The position numbers and the translations under genes were made by a program. From positions 1-64,000 of the forward strand of contig NZ_SOEF01000003.1 in NCBI RefSeq assembly GCF_004366375.1: DNA of 64,000 bases, read 5' to 3'. The notes under the pieces were generated by a model, which was not told where the DNA came from, searched no databases, and saw only the letters and a list, made by a program, of their open reading frames with translations. Of the stretch, positions 38,946 through 46,503 are shown one piece after another (position 1 is the first letter of the stretch; each line of letters starts with the position of its first letter). Source of the stretch: Halanaerobium congolense (GTDB lineage: Bacteria; Bacillota; Halanaerobiia; Halanaerobiales; Halanaerobiaceae).

Positions 38946-39542
38946 TTATTTTAAAAAGACATGATTATCAATTGTAACCATCTTTGTTCTGCCGGCAAAA
39001 AAATCGGGATTTCTGGATTTTTTAGGATTATAGAAATATAAACTTCCCTGACTTGGATCCATACCACCAGCTGCATCATAAGCAGCTTTAAAAGCATCAC
39101 TGCTTGGAGATAGATTGATCATCCCATTTTCTACAGGAGTAAATTGTCCTGACTGATAAACAACCCCCTCAATTGAATTTGGAAATGAAGGATGGTAGAC
39201 TCTATTGATTATTACAGCTCCTACTGCAACCTTCCCCTCATAGCTTTCTCCTCTTGCCTCTGCATTAATTATACTAGCCAGTATCTCCATTTCATCAGCA
39301 CTGAAGCTCTTATAACCATAAAAGTTATCCTGAGCAGCTGCCTGCTTGTTATCATTACCACTTCCCAAAACAACCATTAAAAACATAATACCTAGACCGG
39401 TATAGATATCTTCTTTCTCAATTGAAGAAGCTTTAACTTCAGCAGCAGAAGGCATTATAAATGGTATAAATATTGTATTCAATATTATAATTAAAGTTAA
39501 CAAAACTATAACCTTTTTTAAATGACGCTTCTCCATATACAT
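38946..39542 (-). CDS. SleB-type cell wall hydrolase
   Basis: A 198-residue exported protein. An N-terminal hydrophobic segment (VIVLLTLIIILNTIFIPFIM, residues about 11-30) serves as signal or anchor. The C-terminal Hydrolase_2/SleB catalytic domain reads ILASIINAEARGESYEGKVA, then GAVIINRVYHPSFPNSI and SGQFTPV; the glutamate in NAEARGE is the expected catalytic acid. SleB-family enzymes are lytic transglycosylases acting on spore cortex or vegetative peptidoglycan. It lacks the N-terminal peptidoglycan-binding domain of true SleB, so a general wall hydrolase is more likely. It ends beside the shared terminator with parC. Confidence 0.85.
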   Translation of the reverse strand: MYMEKRHLKKVIVLLTLIIILNTIFIPFIMPSAAEVKASSIEKEDIYTGLGIMFLMVVLGSGNDNKQAAAQDNFYGYKSFSADEMEILASIINAEARGESYEGKVAVGAVIINRVYHPSFPNSIEGVVYQSGQFTPVENGMINLSPSSDAFKAAYDAAGGMDPSQGSLYFYNPKKSRNPDFFAGRTKMVTIDNHVFLK

Positions 39543-39608: not shown

Positions 39609-40337
39609 TTACAGCAGCAGTGCTAATAATGCTAAACCACCAATAATATAACCAGTATTAAGAGAACCACCATCAGCTTCTGCTTTAGCTGCTTTTTCTC
39701 CTTCTAAAACTGCTATTCTATTTTCAAGCTCTTCAATTCTAGTCATATTTACACTCTGATTGTCTTCAAGCTCCTGCAGTTTTTGACCAGAAAGGCCTTC
39801 GGCTTTTAAAGCGGCTAATTCTTTTTCTAAAGCTGCAATTTGACCGTCTATTTTTTTAACACTTGCTTCTAAATTAGGTACTTTTTGCACATCTTCGTTC
39901 ATTTCTGCTATTTCTACATTTAAATTAGCAATATCCTCATTCTGAATCTGATTTGTATCTTCTAAATTATTTAATCTTTCTTCAAAGTTTTTCTGTCTTT
40001 CAGCAACAGTAACCAGCTCATCTCTAAACTCTAGAGATAACTCTCTAATAACATCAACATCTTCTTCGCTTAAGTCTTGAGAGCCTGCTGCTCCTCCAAC
40101 TGTGTTTTCTAAAATATTTGCTATTATCTCTGCCATTTCATATCTGGTTAGTGGTTTCTCACCATTAAAATCTTCGCCAGAGTAAAGGCTTAAATATCCC
40201 CGTTCGGCTAAAGTCTGAACACTATCATAAGCCCAGTGATCACGAGGAACATCATCAAATTGCTGTGCATAAACACCAATACTAAAAATTAAAACAAACA
40301 ACACTGTTAAAGAAATTACTTTTTTGTAGTTAAACAT
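39609..40337 (-). CDS. SLH-domain/coiled-coil/C-terminal anchor envelope protein
   Basis: A 242-residue exported protein. A signal peptide (about residues 1-24, ending VYAQ) is followed by one SLH domain: FDDVPRDHWAYDSVQTLAER and LTRYEMAEIIANIL. A coiled coil then spans about residues 95-215 (heptads in FEERLNNLEDTNQ, LEASVKKIDGQIAALEKELA and RIEELENRIAVLEGEKAA). It ends with a short hydrophobic segment, TGYIIGGLALLALLL. This order matches Omp-alpha of Thermotoga, which ties peptidoglycan (SLH side) to the outer membrane (C-terminal anchor) across the periplasm. A tether role here is inferred. The gene starts one base after the cohesin-like gene ends. Confidence 0.82.
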   Translation of the reverse strand: MFNYKKVISLTVLFVLIFSIGVYAQQFDDVPRDHWAYDSVQTLAERGYLSLYSGEDFNGEKPLTRYEMAEIIANILENTVGGAAGSQDLSEEDVDVIRELSLEFRDELVTVAERQKNFEERLNNLEDTNQIQNEDIANLNVEIAEMNEDVQKVPNLEASVKKIDGQIAALEKELAALKAEGLSGQKLQELEDNQSVNMTRIEELENRIAVLEGEKAAKAEADGGSLNTGYIIGGLALLALLL

Positions 40338-42338
40338 TTAATTTTCCTCCTCAATAATATTTCGCTGTTCAATTTGAAATTGTTCTCCAGTTCCAGTTAC
40401 TGCTTCTAAATTATTAATACTAATACTGCCAGGATTCTCATTTTTCAATTTAAAGTGAAGAGTCGCAATTACCCCATTAGCTTTGTTAAAAGGAAATTCT
40501 TGGTCAAAGATAACCTTACCAGGCTCTGATTTATCAGGTCTGTTAAATGGTAATAAGTTATTGTCTCTAACAAAGAAATCACCTCTAGAAATATGAGTTA
40601 GCAGCAGATTGTTGCTGTTATAATTAAGCTCAAATGACAAATTTTCTACTTCTGAAATATTTGCAGCCAAAATATCAACAGCATAATAATCTTTATCCTG
40701 CTGGCCCATAGTTTCTTTAAGTAAAATCAAGGGTTTTAATTCTGGTAAACTAATTTCTTCAACTATTGTTTTTTGATAGTTATTGATACCAGTCACTTTT
40801 AAAGCAAATGGTAAGGTACCATCTACTCTTAAAGCCTCAATAGCCCAATTAATATTAATATTTTCTCCATCTCTTAACATGCCTAGATGTTTTTTGCTTT
40901 TTTCCTGACTGGCTGTCACTAAGCCAGGAGGTAAGATCAGTTCTGCTTCAACACCATACAGAGATGTTTCTCCAGAATTATTAATTTCAGCCTGAATTCT
41001 AAATGGATTAGGCTCCAGTCTACCGTCAACAGATTGAACATCTTCCATTAAAGTAATACTTGCATTCAACTCAGGTGGTCCTAAAAATCTTACTCTTCTT
41101 TCAACTTCATTTGAATCAGTATTATCTGCACCAACTATTACTCTATAAGTCATATTTTCAGGTAAATTATTTATATTATCTACACTAATATTCCAAGTTG
41201 TTTGTGAGATATCACCTGGTTCCATATCGCCAAGGTTTCTGCTTACCTCATCAGCCTTAAAATTATTAGGTAATTCAATTTTCAAAGAAACATTGCGGGC
41301 ATTAATTTCAGATGTATTTTCCAAATAAGCTACTACCGGGAAGCTCTGATTATTGTTGTCTAAAGTGACTTCAGCCGGTGAGGTTACACCTAAAGATAAA
41401 ATACCAGGCACTATAGTAATTCCACCAAGTCCATATTTAGTAATATATGTTTTACTGTCTCCTGGCTCGATTATTTCTGGGACCCAATACATAGCAATTG
41501 CACTATCAATCTCATACTCACCTTTACGTATAAATTCCTGACCGGGATTAAAATCAAAATCCCAGACACCATCTGCTAAACTTCCCCAATCTGAAAAATA
41601 AACTCGATCAGGTGTACTGACATCAGCGCCAATAAATGATCCCTGAGAAGTTACCTGTGGATTTGATACACTATCAAATGCCTGCCAAAAATCATCCAGC
41701 TGTTTATCATAATATAATTTATCTTGTGAAATTGTGGCTTCACCCAATCTAAATGGAGCACCATCATTTTCACCTAACATTGTATCGAGCATTATTCTTA
41801 AACCAACTTTTTCAGATTCTTCCCCCTCATTAATAACCCTATATTGTATTTGAGCACTATCGGCAAGGCCGGTTGTTGAACTTTTGACTATAGTTAAAAT
41901 TTGTTCAACAACAATGTTATTAAATCTGGTCTTAGTAACTATTCGATTACCCTCAACTGTTGGCTCCTGAATGACTTCACCGTATCTAGCATTTTTACCG
42001 GCCCTTCTTTCAGTTGAGCCGCCAAATACATATTTTTGATCATTAATCCAGAGAGATGTATAGGAAGTCCAGGGATTAGGACGACCATAAATTAAGGGTT
42101 TATTATCATCATTTTCTCTAGCAGGAGCACCGCCAGTAGTTTCAACGGCAAATCTCCCCTGAGAATTTTTGTTTTGATTAACAACAATTACTATATATTC
42201 ATTACCAAAACGAAGATTATTATGCTCATCTTCATTTTTAAAAAAATTATTCTGTGCTGCTGCATTAAAGCTTAGAGTTAAAATTAACAGCAGTGAAATA
42301 AAAGCTATATTTATATATCTATATTTTTTCATTAACAA
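40338..42338 (-). CDS. Large exported protein with cohesin-like C-terminal domain
   Basis: A 666-residue protein with a signal peptide (KKYRYINIAFISLLLILTLSFNAAA). Residues 35-300 are of no family I recognise (it contains NEYIVIVVNQNKNSQGRFAV and GRPNPWTSYTSLWIND). Two repeated beta-sandwich segments of CARDB/NEW3 type follow at about 305-530 (LGVTSPAEVTLDNNNQSFPV; NPFRIQAEINNSGETSLYGV). A cohesin-like domain lies at about 545-650 (VENLSFELNYNSNNLLLTHI, GVIATLHFKLKNENPGSISI). It lies between the TonB gene and the SLH-anchor gene, each within a base, so it is co-expressed with the TonB system. It may be a periplasmic or surface scaffold. Confidence 0.7.
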   Translation of the reverse strand: MLMKKYRYINIAFISLLLILTLSFNAAAQNNFFKNEDEHNNLRFGNEYIVIVVNQNKNSQGRFAVETTGGAPARENDDNKPLIYGRPNPWTSYTSLWINDQKYVFGGSTERRAGKNARYGEVIQEPTVEGNRIVTKTRFNNIVVEQILTIVKSSTTGLADSAQIQYRVINEGEESEKVGLRIMLDTMLGENDGAPFRLGEATISQDKLYYDKQLDDFWQAFDSVSNPQVTSQGSFIGADVSTPDRVYFSDWGSLADGVWDFDFNPGQEFIRKGEYEIDSAIAMYWVPEIIEPGDSKTYITKYGLGGITIVPGILSLGVTSPAEVTLDNNNQSFPVVAYLENTSEINARNVSLKIELPNNFKADEVSRNLGDMEPGDISQTTWNISVDNINNLPENMTYRVIVGADNTDSNEVERRVRFLGPPELNASITLMEDVQSVDGRLEPNPFRIQAEINNSGETSLYGVEAELILPPGLVTASQEKSKKHLGMLRDGENININWAIEALRVDGTLPFALKVTGINNYQKTIVEEISLPELKPLILLKETMGQQDKDYYAVDILAANISEVENLSFELNYNSNNLLLTHISRGDFFVRDNNLLPFNRPDKSEPGKVIFDQEFPFNKANGVIATLHFKLKNENPGSISINNLEAVTGTGEQFQIEQRNIIEEEN

Positions 42339-43271
42339 TTACTCACCTCCGGCAATAAAATCAACCTGACCAATATCTACTTCTACCTGACTGTTATCAG
42401 ATTGGTCAATATAATATCTTACTGAAACAGGAATCTTATAAGCTTGTTGGTATTCCTTGAACTTCCAGCCGTGTTCTAAGGTCAGCTGGGCTACTCTATC
42501 CATAGAATCATAACCTGAAGATTCTACAATTTCAATATCTTCCACATTACCTCCTGGTGAGATTCTAACCATTAAACTAACAGTACCTTCAGAACGACTA
42601 CCAACTAAATCCTTAGGAAATGTTGGAGGTTCTATCAGTCCAATTAAGTCACCTGAGGTTGGTGGGGGTGGTGGTGGAGGTGCAGATTCTTCCTCTTGTA
42701 CTGCAGCAGAATCAATATTTTCTTCTACAGCTTCATTTTCTGATTCTGATTCTGATTCTGAAATTTCTTGCTGAACTACCTCAACTTCACTTTCGCTTTC
42801 CTCACTGGCTATAACTTCTTCCTCAGGTTTTTTTACTTCAGGTTCTGGCTCAGAAGCTGGCTCAGGTTCTTCGATAACTTCTGGTTTTGGCTCAGATTCT
42901 TCAGCTGCTTCAATTTCTTCTATTTTCTCTTCAACAATTTCTGGCTCAGGTTCTGGTTCTGGTTCAGTAATTTCTTCTACTGGTTCTTCTGGAATTGGCT
43001 CTTTTTCTGGTTCTTCAACTTCTTCAATCTCTTCCAACTCTTCTTCATCTGGATCTTCAGTTAATTCTGCCTCTTCCACTGCATTTTCTGTTTCAATAGG
43101 AGAGGGTTGATAATCAACCATCTGAACATAACCGTAATCATTTAATTCGCTCTCACTTTGAGCACTACCGTGCAGAAAACCAATAGGGAGAAAATAGATA
43201 ACTAAAAGATGTAAAACAATTGAAATACTTATATAAAGCAGTAATTTTCTGTCGTCATTATTATTAGGCAT
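42339..43271 (-). CDS. tonB: TonB energy-transducer protein
   Basis: A 310-residue protein with the TonB layout. There is a cytoplasmic start, one transmembrane helix (LLYISISIVLHLLVIYFLPIG, residues about 10-30), then a long Pro/Glu-rich periplasm-spanning stretch (about 55-200, EPEPEPE-type repeats and PPPPPPP near 200). A C-terminal TonB domain follows (about 215-300, EGTVSLMVRISPGGNVEDIE, then HGWKFKEYQQAY). The histidine in the membrane helix (VLHLLV) is at the position needed for ExbB/ExbD coupling. ExbD and ExbB genes lie directly upstream. It passes proton-motive energy to an outer-membrane receptor not found in this window. Confidence 0.92.
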   Translation of the reverse strand: MPNNNDDRKLLLYISISIVLHLLVIYFLPIGFLHGSAQSESELNDYGYVQMVDYQPSPIETENAVEEAELTEDPDEEELEEIEEVEEPEKEPIPEEPVEEITEPEPEPEPEIVEEKIEEIEAAEESEPKPEVIEEPEPASEPEPEVKKPEEEVIASEESESEVEVVQQEISESESESENEAVEENIDSAAVQEEESAPPPPPPPTSGDLIGLIEPPTFPKDLVGSRSEGTVSLMVRISPGGNVEDIEIVESSGYDSMDRVAQLTLEHGWKFKEYQQAYKIPVSVRYYIDQSDNSQVEVDIGQVDFIAGGE

Positions 43272-43286
43272 AAATTCACCATCCCA

Positions 43287-43700
43287 TTAACTACCTTCTT
43301 TTTCTGCTGCTAATGCCAATCTTGTTATGCCAACATTCCGCATACCATCCATCAGCGAAACTACATTTTCATAACGAGTATTTTTATCAGCACTAATTAC
43401 AATAGTTAAGTTATTGTTTTCATTATTTGCAACTTCTGCTTCCGAAATAATTTGATTTAAGGCTAAAGATTGATCTTCATAATAATAATTACCTTCTTCA
43501 TCAATTTGAACTATAAAGTTTTGACTGCTTTGTTCAGTAGCAGTCACAGCTTTTGGCAGCTGCATTTCAATACCTTCAGGAGTAGTTCTAAAAGTAGTGA
43601 AAAGCATAAAAAATACTAAAAGAAAAAATATAACATCAATCATTGGAATTATATTAATTGAACTTTTTTTCTTAAGAGTAGTTTTGAACATCACTTTCAC
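43287..43700 (-). CDS. exbD: Biopolymer transport protein ExbD/TolR family
   Basis: A 137-residue protein with one transmembrane helix, preceded by INIIPMIDVIFFLLVFFMLF. The Asp in PMIDVIF is the proton-path residue of ExbD/TolR/MotB. A periplasmic domain follows (SQNFIVQIDEEGNYYYEDQS and VVSLMDGMRNVGITRLALAA). Its start overlaps the upstream ExbB gene by 29 bases. Together with ExbB and TonB it forms the inner-membrane motor for outer-membrane import. Confidence 0.93.
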   Translation of the reverse strand: MKVMFKTTLKKKSSINIIPMIDVIFFLLVFFMLFTTFRTTPEGIEMQLPKAVTATEQSSQNFIVQIDEEGNYYYEDQSLALNQIISEAEVANNENNNLTIVISADKNTRYENVVSLMDGMRNVGITRLALAAEKEGS

Positions 43701-44331
43701 CTCTATTACTGCCTACCACATCAACAATTTCTACCATGTTTAAGTTCATTTGATGGGCTCTTCTTTCTACCTTATGGGCAAAATAAGAGTAGAATATAGC
43801 AGTCGGAATGGCAATAATTAATCCAAGAGCAGTACTTATTAAAGCTGCAGCAATACCAGAACTAATCTGAGCTGGATTTGCTGCTCCTGCTGCTGTACCA
43901 AGAATATTGAAACTGCTTATTATTCCTATAACTGTACCTAACAGACCAAGCAGTGGTGAAATCATTGCAATAACATCTAAAATAGGTAGATGTCTTTCCA
44001 TTTTTTTGATTTCATCTTCTCCAACAGCTTGTAAAACTTCTCTTAAACGAGAGGGGTTTTCACTGTTATGAGCCAAAGCAGCTGACAACAATTTAGCGTT
44101 TGTTCCTTTTTTACCTTTTAATTCATTTAAAGCACTTAAAATATCCCCTTCTTCAACTAAAATCTCTATTCTTTTAATTAACCTCACATTATTATCATTG
44201 TTTCTATAAAAGAAAATTGCTTTTTCAATTATTACAGCTAGACTGAATACCGATGCAATCAAAAGCGGTATAGTCATTGGTCCACCAAGTGTTAATAAAT
44301 TCCAAATACGGTTAAAATCCAATCCTATCAC
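43672..44331 (-). CDS. exbB: MotA/TolQ/ExbB proton channel protein
   Basis: A 219-residue membrane protein with three hydrophobic segments. One is near residues 17-37 (GPMTIPLLIASVFSLAVIIE); the other two are in LPILDVIAMISPLLGLLGTV and SSGIAAALISTALGLIIAIP. The GLLGTVIGI and ALxSTALGL motifs are diagnostic of ExbB/TolQ. First gene of a leftward run exbB-exbD-tonB-cohesin-like-SLH anchor. TolQ is the alternative name, but the companion TonB favours ExbB. Confidence 0.93.
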   Translation of the reverse strand: MIGLDFNRIWNLLTLGGPMTIPLLIASVFSLAVIIEKAIFFYRNNDNNVRLIKRIEILVEEGDILSALNELKGKKGTNAKLLSAALAHNSENPSRLREVLQAVGEDEIKKMERHLPILDVIAMISPLLGLLGTVIGIISSFNILGTAAGAANPAQISSGIAAALISTALGLIIAIPTAIFYSYFAHKVERRAHQMNLNMVEIVDVVGSNRGESDVQNYS

Positions 44332-44425: not shown

Positions 44426-45826
44426 CTAGGCAGCTGGAAAAATGAGTTTAAAGACTGTTCCGCCAGCTTCATTTTCAACTACAATTTTTCCTTGATGAGC
44501 ATCCATTAACTCTTTGACTACTGCGAGTCCAATACCGGTACCCTGATTACTCGAATTTCTTGATTTATCTGCCCTGTAAAATCTTTCGAAAATATAAGGT
44601 AGATCCTTGTCGCTAATTCCAACTCCACTGTCTCTAATAGCTATAGTTAATTTCTCTTGATCAGCTGAACTTTCAACTTCAATTTTTCCGTTAACAACAT
44701 TATATTTAATTGCATTTTCTATAATATTATTAAAAATTTGAAATAAACTATCTTTATCACCTTTAATATACAAGTTTGCATCCAATTTCAATTTCAGTTT
44801 AATATTTTTTTTATTTAAAAAATTATGGTGCTGTTTAATTACCTTTTTGATAATTGTATTTAAATTTACTTTTTCCTCAGTCAAATTAAATATTTTATTC
44901 TGAGCATTAGCAAATTCATTTAATTTTTCAATTAAAATAGTCATTCGCTGACTTTCTTCCTGCATTTCTTTGATGGTTTCCTGATCAGCTTCCATTTTTC
45001 CATCTTCTATTGCTTCAAGATAACCCTTAATCGTTGTTAAAGGAGTTCTTAATTCGTGAGCTAAATCAGAAGTAGATTCTTTTCTTATTTTTTCTAATTT
45101 ATGCAGTTTTCTGCTCATTAAATTAAAAGCATCTATTAGTTCTGCTAATTCGTCATCTCCTTTGCCTTCAATATTCTGCTGATAATTCCCTTGCGCAACT
45201 GCCAGAGCTGCATTTTTAACTTTGATTAAGGGACTTGTAATCTTTTTTGATAAAATAAAAGAAAGACCTATTATTAAAATAGTAACAAAAAACGCACTAA
45301 AAATTATTGCTCGATAAATATTGTTTTTAAAATAACTGTATAACTCTGAATCAAGCTGATTTTCTCCACTGACTTCTTTCCAGTGTAGGGTTAATACTTT
45401 TTCTCCATCTACAATAATATCCTTTTCTTTGTTTTGGCCGGGAAAATCATCCGGAAGCTGCCGCATCATATTCATATGATGCATTCGGCTTTCATTGTTC
45501 ATGCCCATTCTTCTCATCATATTAAACATCTGATTATTCTGAGCTGGAAAATATATAAATTCTCCCTTACTATCCTCAACCCAAATTGGAATTCTATTTG
45601 TACGGCTGAAATTTTCAACTAAAGATCTAATACTGCTGAAATTATTGTTATTAAAATTTTCCCCAATCATTTCTGCAAGTTCACTGATGTTTTCTTCCCG
45701 CTGCAGATTAATAAAATTATCAAATCTTTCTCCGATAGAAAAATTTATAAAAATACCAACTAATAAAAGAGAAAAAATTACCAGAATCAAAAATATTATA
45801 AATAACTTTTTCCCAAGCTTTGACAT
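44426..45826 (-). CDS. Sensor histidine kinase with Met/His-rich sensor loop
   Basis: A 466-residue kinase. It has two membrane helices (about residues 9-31 and 170-195) enclosing an external sensor of about 135 residues, then HAMP (SPLIKVKNAALAVAQGNYQQ) and the phospho-acceptor motif DLAHELRTPLTTIKGYLEAI. The ATPase motifs are IFNNIIENAIKYN, DSGVGISDKDLPYIFERFYR and GTGIGLAVVKELM. The sensor holds a methionine/histidine-rich stretch, NQMFNMMRRMGMNN then RMHHMNMMRQL (about residues 97-122), suggesting metal ion binding. It is translated from a start overlapping the stop of the response regulator gene. Confidence 0.9.
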   Translation of the reverse strand: MSKLGKKLFIIFLILVIFSLLLVGIFINFSIGERFDNFINLQREENISELAEMIGENFNNNNFSSIRSLVENFSRTNRIPIWVEDSKGEFIYFPAQNNQMFNMMRRMGMNNESRMHHMNMMRQLPDDFPGQNKEKDIIVDGEKVLTLHWKEVSGENQLDSELYSYFKNNIYRAIIFSAFFVTILIIGLSFILSKKITSPLIKVKNAALAVAQGNYQQNIEGKGDDELAELIDAFNLMSRKLHKLEKIRKESTSDLAHELRTPLTTIKGYLEAIEDGKMEADQETIKEMQEESQRMTILIEKLNEFANAQNKIFNLTEEKVNLNTIIKKVIKQHHNFLNKKNIKLKLKLDANLYIKGDKDSLFQIFNNIIENAIKYNVVNGKIEVESSADQEKLTIAIRDSGVGISDKDLPYIFERFYRADKSRNSSNQGTGIGLAVVKELMDAHQGKIVVENEAGGTVFKLIFPAA

Positions 45827-46503
45827 TAAATATCACCTATAAATTTATATCCGGCTCCATAAACAGTGACAATATATTGATCTTTTTCAAGATCTAATTT
45901 TTTTCTAATATTTTTAATGTGAACATCAATGGTTCTATCAAAACCACTGAATTCTAGCCCCATAACTTTATCTGCCAGCTGTTCTCTGCTTAAAACCTGC
46001 TCGGAATTGTTAATCAAAGTCATTAATATTTTAAACTCTGTATTTGTTAACTCGCAATCATTATTATTTTTTCTGACTATCATTTCTTCTGGATAAATTT
46101 TATATTCCCCATTATTTAAGCTGATTATATCTGCCCTCTCTTTATTCTGGCTGCGCCTTAAAATGGCTTTAACTCTCATTAATAGTTCGCGGGGGCTAAA
46201 TGGTTTACTTAAATAATCGTCTGCTCCATAATTGAATCCATCAATTTTATCTTCTTCACTGCTTTTAGCTGTCAGCATAATTATTGCAACATCAGAAATT
46301 TGTCTAATTTTCTGACAGACTTCCTCCCCACTGACTTTAGGCAGCATTAGATCTAAAATAATTAAATCAATTTCATTATTTTTAAAAATATTCAGGGCTT
46401 TTTCGCCATCTTCTGCTTCTAAAATAGAATAATCATCTTTAAGATAGCTTTTTATAATTTTTCTGATTTTAGCTTCATCTTCTACAACTAATATTTTTTC
46501 CAT
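45826..46503 (-). CDS. OmpR-family response regulator
   Basis: A 225-residue regulator. The receiver domain has acidic residues in ILVVEDEAKIRK, phospho-acceptor Asp in DLIILDLMLPKVSGEEV (about residue 51), the switch Thr in IIMLTAKSSEED and Lys in DYLSKPFSPREL. The C-terminal OmpR/PhoB winged helix ends with DRTIDVHIKNIRKKL and VTVYGAGYKF. Its stop overlaps the kinase start by one base in a TAATG-type junction, so the two form one operon. The target genes are unknown; the adjacent TonB cluster on the same strand is one candidate. Confidence 0.93.
   Translation of the reverse strand: MEKILVVEDEAKIRKIIKSYLKDDYSILEAEDGEKALNIFKNNEIDLIILDLMLPKVSGEEVCQKIRQISDVAIIMLTAKSSEEDKIDGFNYGADDYLSKPFSPRELLMRVKAILRRSQNKERADIISLNNGEYKIYPEEMIVRKNNNDCELTNTEFKILMTLINNSEQVLSREQLADKVMGLEFSGFDRTIDVHIKNIRKKLDLEKDQYIVTVYGAGYKFIGDI

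Follow-up and report, generated by a model that had tools for sequence, protein, structure and literature searches.

What does an ExbB-ExbD-TonB motor do when its operon continues into two further envelope proteins? In Halanaerobium congolense (assembly GCF_004366375.1, contig NZ_SOEF01000003.1), positions 39609-44331 of the window, by which we mean the whole analysed stretch (positions 1-64,000 of the contig), carry five minus-strand genes in the order ExbB, ExbD, TonB, a 666-amino-acid protein called Big here, and an SLH protein. ExbB and ExbD overlap by 28 bases, ExbD and TonB are 15 bases apart, and the TonB/Big and Big/SLH junctions have gaps of 0. An earlier account of this DNA (the sequence-only reading) had described five genes that overlap or lie no more than 15 bases apart, and all five open reading frames were found where it had placed them. 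It had also proposed an undescribed envelope module; the module proved to be real, conserved and, in the open-access literature, apparently undescribed. Our preferred explanation, which we rate at about even odds, is a proton-powered tether machine spanning the envelope, like Tol-Pal in its working but distinct from it. In a more far-reaching reading, to which we assign a probability of about 0.45, diderm Firmicutes would possess a hitherto unrecognised machine for outer-membrane maintenance, powered by protons and evolved independently of Tol-Pal from a motor of the same type; a mutarotase-fold adaptor and an SLH stalk would load tethers onto the wall during growth and division, and the machine would have disappeared along with the outer membrane as lineages turned monoderm.

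The five-gene arrangement is far beyond chance and is kept across 33 families. In the order Halanaerobiales, 36 of 38 genomes, including 29 of 29 good-quality ones, carry one copy of Big, with identities of 44-86%, and the ExbB-ExbD-TonB-Big-SLH order is kept in every locus long enough to show it. Among the named relatives in a separate collection were Halanaerobium saccharolyticum, H. kushneri, H. salsuginis, H. polyolivorans, Fuchsiella alkaliacetigena and several Halanaerobiales metagenome-assembled genomes. A profile built from 29 Big sequences was run on 398 genomes of one phylum and identified full-length Big in 88 of them, from 33 families. Of 65 loci retrieved from outside the order, mostly with long stretches on either side, 55 showed all five genes recognisably in order. 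Five of the remaining ten are cut by contig ends and the others are L142, L146, L159, L096 and L160. The TonB slot in L142, L146 and L159 holds a transducer that the profile missed; it has the transmembrane histidine and a linker rich in proline or glycine. The missing call in L096, a GC-rich locus, reflects confused reading frames. An apparent fusion of the Big and SLH genes in L028 and L030 was rejected as an artefact, a stop codon standing between the genes. Median gaps along the five genes were -20, 13, 14 and 17 bases. Clustering of the neighbours in the 65 loci revealed no conserved sixth gene, the commonest other family occurring in 19; because nothing else is conserved, the functional unit appears to be these five genes. 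The check on gene order that the sequence-only reading had called for thus shows an arrangement that is not unique to this strain.

The distribution of the module follows that of the outer membrane. Omp85/BamA was detected in 102 of the 398 genomes of the same phylum set. Of the 88 genomes with Big, 87 had it; counting genomes without correction for kinship, Fisher's test gives p about 1e-70. Counted by family, Big occurred in 33 of the 35 Omp85 families and in no Omp85-negative family (p about 5e-30). G396, the sole Big genome in which Omp85 was not matched, has a completeness of 91% and belongs to a family that has Omp85. We consider it very probable that the operon is a dedicated outer-membrane system.

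TonB-dependent receptors, judged by two Pfam models (PF00593 and Plug), do not share this distribution. PF00593 matched in 27 of the 88 Big genomes and in none of the other 61, and 21 of the 33 Big families had no receptor in the sample. A re-test of seven receptor-less Big genomes with Plug found none, five of these genomes being single-contig and 96-100% complete. H. congolense has one receptor, encoded on another contig in a contiguous receptor-TonB2-ExbB2-ExbD2 locus (L092:4544-8544, G000:C8). This receptor has a plain TonB box, and the N-terminal hydrophobic helix of TonB2 is without the motor-binding histidine. A conventional Ton system, in which ExbBD-TonB energises receptors from other loci while Big and the SLH protein have accessory roles in the envelope, would account for the TonB_C match above its cut-off and for the 27 module genomes with receptors. 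It would leave unexplained the 61 genomes and 21 families in which no receptor was found, the separate TonB2-ExbB2-ExbD2 set of the genome's own receptor, and the receptor-rich diderm families that lack the module (f39 and f69, probably Negativicutes by elimination); we regard it as very unlikely. In this genome no receptor could be assigned to the window TonB, which may serve the L092 receptor too. Because receptors are mostly absent and the genome's own receptor has its own TonB2-ExbB2-ExbD2, the module is, as far as gene content indicates, separate from nutrient import. The 2009 genome paper on Halothermothrix orenii had noted ExbB-ExbD-TonB without receptors and suspected a different function, leaving the role unstated (PMC2626281). 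A 2025 survey placed Ton systems among diderm Firmicutes only in Negativicutes (PMC12204202); since the present genome carries a receptor, that survey is incomplete on this point.

The motor itself scores nearest to TolQ/TolR. Among NCBIfam models, ExbB scored higher with tolQ (102 bits) than with exbB (77 bits), both under their equivalog cut-offs, and ExbD scored higher with tolR (86 bits, also under its cut-off) than with exbD (52 bits). The GLLGTV and T/A core was invariant in ExbB orthologues (n = 61), as was the channel Asp of ExbD (61/61). TonB consists of a transmembrane helix with an S17-x3-H21 motor motif, an acidic/proline linker and a TonB C-terminal domain; all 56 orthologues with an intact 5' end had the histidine, 51 of them with S-x3-H spacing. 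By their domains and channel Asp, ExbB and ExbD are assigned to the motors of the ExbBD/TolQR kind, and TonB is assigned, by its motif and C-terminal domain, to the TonB/TolA-type transducers carrying the motor-binding histidine. TonB length correlated weakly with the length of the SLH-protein stalk (rho 0.27, p 0.046), and this correlation was not used.

We utilized AlphaFold2 to predict the structure of Big, which has a signal peptide and no general lipobox. A first fold was built from 29 sequences (predicted local distance difference test, pLDDT, 79) and a second model from 84 sequences (pLDDT 92.7; predicted template modelling score, pTM, 0.81). Structure search with the first model gave generic immunoglobulin (Ig) matches only, and the Foldseek list for the second again consisted mostly of Ig chains; the mutarotase and cohesin fold matches came from a second structure aligner. 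With this aligner, residues 29-303 matched 3mwx_A (Z 16.8, root-mean-square deviation 2.7, 211 residues aligned) and residues 530-660 matched 5nrk_A (Z 14.2, root-mean-square deviation 2.9, 126 residues aligned), with two Ig-like domains between them at residues 312-529. For the middle region, NEW3/Ig-like is a better name than the CARDB label of the sequence-only reading. Its cohesin-like label was supported by profile and fold: the Pfam cohesin score (17.8) lies under the 24.1 cut-off, and a profile search of solved structures reached cohesin 3l8q at an E value of 8.7e-7. Searching solved structures with the single sequence gave no match, nor did a search of plasmids.

Residues 29-303, overlooked by the sequence-only reading, are the most conserved region of Big and match no Pfam model. 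Of the columns conserved at 90% or more among the 84 sequences, 75 lie in this domain and 2 in the cohesin-like domain, the least conserved of Big's domains. Big did not match the Pfam aldose epimerase model. In sequence columns, read without a residue-level structural alignment, the first domain has no conserved His (best column 56%) and has Glu272 at 99%. Since no histidine is conserved there, we infer that the mutarotase-like domain binds rather than catalyses.

This domain architecture allows two further explanations. In the first, the mutarotase-like domain of Big would bind a polysaccharide (wall glycan, lipopolysaccharide or exopolysaccharide), which TonB would move across the periplasm or to the surface. 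Supersandwiches of the mutarotase type commonly handle carbohydrates, NEW3 and cohesin domains are frequent in proteins that act on carbohydrates, and the first domain of Big recurs in surface proteins elsewhere, all of which would suit such energised glycan transport or assembly. Module presence, however, follows the outer membrane as such and not any polysaccharide locus, no gene for a glycosyltransferase, for export or for sugars is kept beside the operon, and the invariant SLH-stalk partner is explained less well, making this explanation unlikely. In the second, the cohesin-like domain would recruit dockerin enzymes or glycan-binding proteins, as in a cellulosome. Dockerins (PF00404), whose search the sequence-only reading had suggested, were absent from 34 of the order's 38 genomes, that of H. 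congolense among them. The cohesin fold at the C-terminus of Big is the point in favour of such capture; besides the missing dockerins, the low conservation of that domain and the fact that Big is unchanged between genomes with and without dockerins speak against it, and we consider it largely refuted. The same results, together with the 61 receptor-less genomes and the separate TonB-ExbB-ExbD set of the genome's own receptor, make unlikely the earlier proposal that the operon energises a receptor for polysaccharide capture. Dockerins were present in four genomes of the order (G009, G004, G005 and G027), with at least 32 in G009, which suggests cellulosome-like systems in some Halanaerobiales.

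The fifth gene supplies the putative tether. Its SLH plan lies downstream of Big in 64 loci, where the protein varies from 213 to 907 amino acids, its stalk has a median proline content of 0%, and a hydrophobic C-terminal segment is nearly always present (Table 1). The porin model NF033921 matched only residues 25-128 of the 242. An SLH domain is present, as in OmpM, but the C-terminus is a hydrophobic segment where OmpM has a beta-barrel; the architecture of SLH domain, alpha-helical stalk and hydrophobic C-terminus is that of Omp-alpha/OmpA1, which in Thermotoga is described as fixing the toga to the wall (PMC3387000). The name "SLH outer-membrane tether" given in the sequence-only reading therefore fits in architecture, and insertion into the outer membrane stays predicted. 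Two SLH matches were found in this genome, that of the operon and an OmpM-sized gene on the bamA-carrying contig. An outer-membrane-to-wall tether is, in our view, the probable working part of the system. The SLH protein might instead be a plain tether, with Big signalling to the motor, by way of TonB, how tense the envelope is or how widely it is spaced; or the motor might do no more than position the complex. Motor-less Omp-alpha-like tethers are known in Thermotogales (PMC3387000), and the length of the SLH protein varies like that of a spacer. A passive scaffold or sensor is distinctly unlikely, however, given that the motor residues are fully conserved and the motor genes are kept with the tether, which implies energy use.

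These components can be placed on the Tol-Pal cycle, in which TolQRA removes TolB from Pal and leaves Pal free to bind the wall, chiefly during division (PMC8928145). The genes stand in the same order, and exbB would correspond to tolQ, exbD to tolR, tonB to tolA, big to tolB and the SLH-stalk gene to pal. The SLH-stalk protein would be anchored in the outer membrane and grip the wall, with Big seated on it in the periplasm; the mutarotase-like domain of Big may hold a sugar of the wall or of lipopolysaccharide. TonB would then detach Big from the stalk, or Big together with its stalk from the wall. Tethers would in this way be loaded at sites where the outer membrane has to keep up with the wall, division being the likeliest occasion. 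A bridge joining the motor in the inner membrane, the wall and the outer membrane, as the sequence-only reading suggested, is retained as the best reading, and we put the chance that the five genes run a Tol-Pal-like energised cycle at about even. It is favoured by a gene order kept in 33 families with no further conserved neighbour, a distribution that tracks Omp85 and not receptors, the separate TonB2-ExbB2-ExbD2 set of the genome's own receptor, a motor nearest TolQ/TolR, the conserved transmembrane His and channel Asp, the Thermotoga-anchor plan of the SLH protein, and the different function suspected for the H. orenii genes. The scarcity of TolB also speaks for it: TolB_N was absent from this genome and matched, marginally, in 1 of the 398 phylum genomes, and the pal and tolB genes have been reported missing from atypical diderms (PMC8871954).

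Several observations weigh against this cycle. Big does not have the TolB fold, nor the SLH protein the Pal fold. Two Omp85 families (f39 and f69) are without the operon, so not every diderm needs it. The ExbB tree showed no dedicated module clade, with receptor-linked ExbBs and those of f39 and f69 nested among module ExbBs at low support. The hydrophobic C-terminus of the SLH protein could lie in the inner membrane instead, and the occurrence of the Big domain in surface proteins and flagellin of Omp85-less genomes could point to a surface-glycan role. No Pal (an OmpA-domain lipoprotein) was found by the motor genes, where the fifth gene is SLH. OmpA-domain matches in this genome were MotB and an unrelated 343-amino-acid protein (L090:1477-2508), a candidate for a further wall-binder.

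Tol-Pal has been reported only from Gracilicutes (PMC12204202), which raises the question of how diderm Terrabacteria energise and constrict the outer membrane. The operon is a concrete candidate answer, being present in 33 of 35 outer-membrane families of the phylum sample and in none without an outer membrane. If our explanation is true, energised tethering arose twice on one kind of motor, the operon is a marker for the presence of an outer membrane, and the debate on outer-membrane loss in Firmicutes gains a new part.

The analysis also defines a widespread, unnamed exported domain. The conserved first domain of Big was found outside the module in 15 genomes without Omp85, where the carriers that were scanned belong to other sorts of exported protein. 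The domain is thus portable and exported, and Pfam has no name for it. In one Omp85-less genome it forms the central insert of a flagellin, with Flagellin_N and Flagellin_C at the ends (L188:6302-7927). In four other loci (L176:6954-13169, L179:7030-11487, L180:6571-13305 and L181:7111-14850) it begins giant exported proteins that add RHS repeats, lipase and RCC1 repeats, or C-terminal SLH repeats.

The features of the locus are listed in Table 1. The Big gene more likely starts at the ATG at 42332, two codons in, giving 664 amino acids; orthologues start there as well, and this ATG stands behind a GGAGGTGA. ExbB may start at the TTG at 44322, and ExbD at the ATG at 43691. A promoter and terminator scan gave 22 promoter-like sites, where chance alone would yield 22.6, and was uninformative on separate control of the last two genes.

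Table 1 Features of the operon and the adjoining hydrolase gene in the window.
Feature	Position	Strand	Evidence
ExbB/TolQ-type motor subunit, 219 aa	43672..44331	-	PF01618 MotA_ExbB 113.6 bits, over cut-off
ExbD/TolR-type motor subunit, 137 aa	43287..43700	-	PF02472 ExbD 107.5 bits, over cut-off
TonB-like transducer, 310 aa	42339..43271	-	PF03544 TonB_C 46.2 bits, over cut-off
Big, exported soluble beta-rich protein, 666 aa from TTG	40338..42338	-	NPCBM_assoc/NEW3 26.0 bits, over cut-off
Big galactose-mutarotase-like supersandwich domain, residues 29-303	41424..42248	-	3mwx_A fold match, column conservation
Big two Ig-like (NEW3-type) domains, residues 312-529	40746..41399	-	PF10633 over cut-off; DSSP on model
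Big cohesin-fold domain, residues 530-660	40353..40745	-	5nrk_A fold match; cohesin profile matches
SLH-stalk-anchor protein, 242 aa, Omp-alpha-like architecture, without beta-barrel	39609..40337	-	PF00395
SLH domain, predicted peptidoglycan/wall-glycan binding	40131..40259	-	PF00395, 32.1 bits (over cut-off) and 34.9 bits
C-terminal hydrophobic segment, predicted membrane anchor, without basic tail	39612..39656	-	seen in 63/64 orthologues
SleB-type cell-wall hydrolase, 198 aa; accessory, not core	38946..39542	-	PF07486 113.6 bits

The SleB-type hydrolase gene follows the operon in most loci of the order and class and not elsewhere in the phylum; a wall hydrolase adjoining the operon in the class counts in favour of the Tol-Pal-like explanation. 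Directly upstream of exbB lie genes for a histidine kinase and a response regulator (window 44426-46503), possibly an envelope regulator of the operon; among the long-flank loci this pair was confined to the genome's own family. In L106 and about nine related loci, all of one lineage, RlmN-like and PP2C-phosphatase-like genes lie 3.7-7.6 kb downstream of Big, a possible link to a wall or division cluster.

Compared with known systems, the operon most resembles in its order of roles the tolQ-tolR-tolA-tolB-pal cluster of Gracilicutes: a motor pair run by the proton motive force (nearest TolQ/TolR by score), a transducer with the His motif, a soluble periplasmic beta-rich protein and a peptidoglycan binder with a membrane anchor. 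It differs in that the transducer end is TonB-like, Big has neither TolB domain nor propeller, and the anchor is an SLH-stalk-helix protein rather than the Pal lipoprotein, the last two parts being non-homologous. The motor and transducer are homologous to those of the Ton system; unlike that system, the module has a fixed linkage to two periplasmic or envelope proteins, most of its genomes are receptor-less, and a conventional Ton locus lies elsewhere in the same genome. Thermotoga OmpA1/Omp-alpha shares the architecture of SLH, helical stalk and about 20 hydrophobic C-terminal residues and has a wall-to-outer-sheath role (PMC3387000), whereas here the SLH protein invariably closes a motor operon as its fifth gene. 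OmpM of Negativicutes and other diderm Terrabacteria is likewise an SLH and stalk tether from wall to outer membrane (PMC10628300), but the operon's protein ends in a hydrophobic helix without the C-terminal beta-barrel. Finally, vWA force-transducer operons beside TolQR-like motors also combine a TolQR-type motor with an unconventional output deduced from conserved linkage (PMC12204202); there the end domain of the transducer is new, whereas here the transducer is TonB-like and the partners are new.

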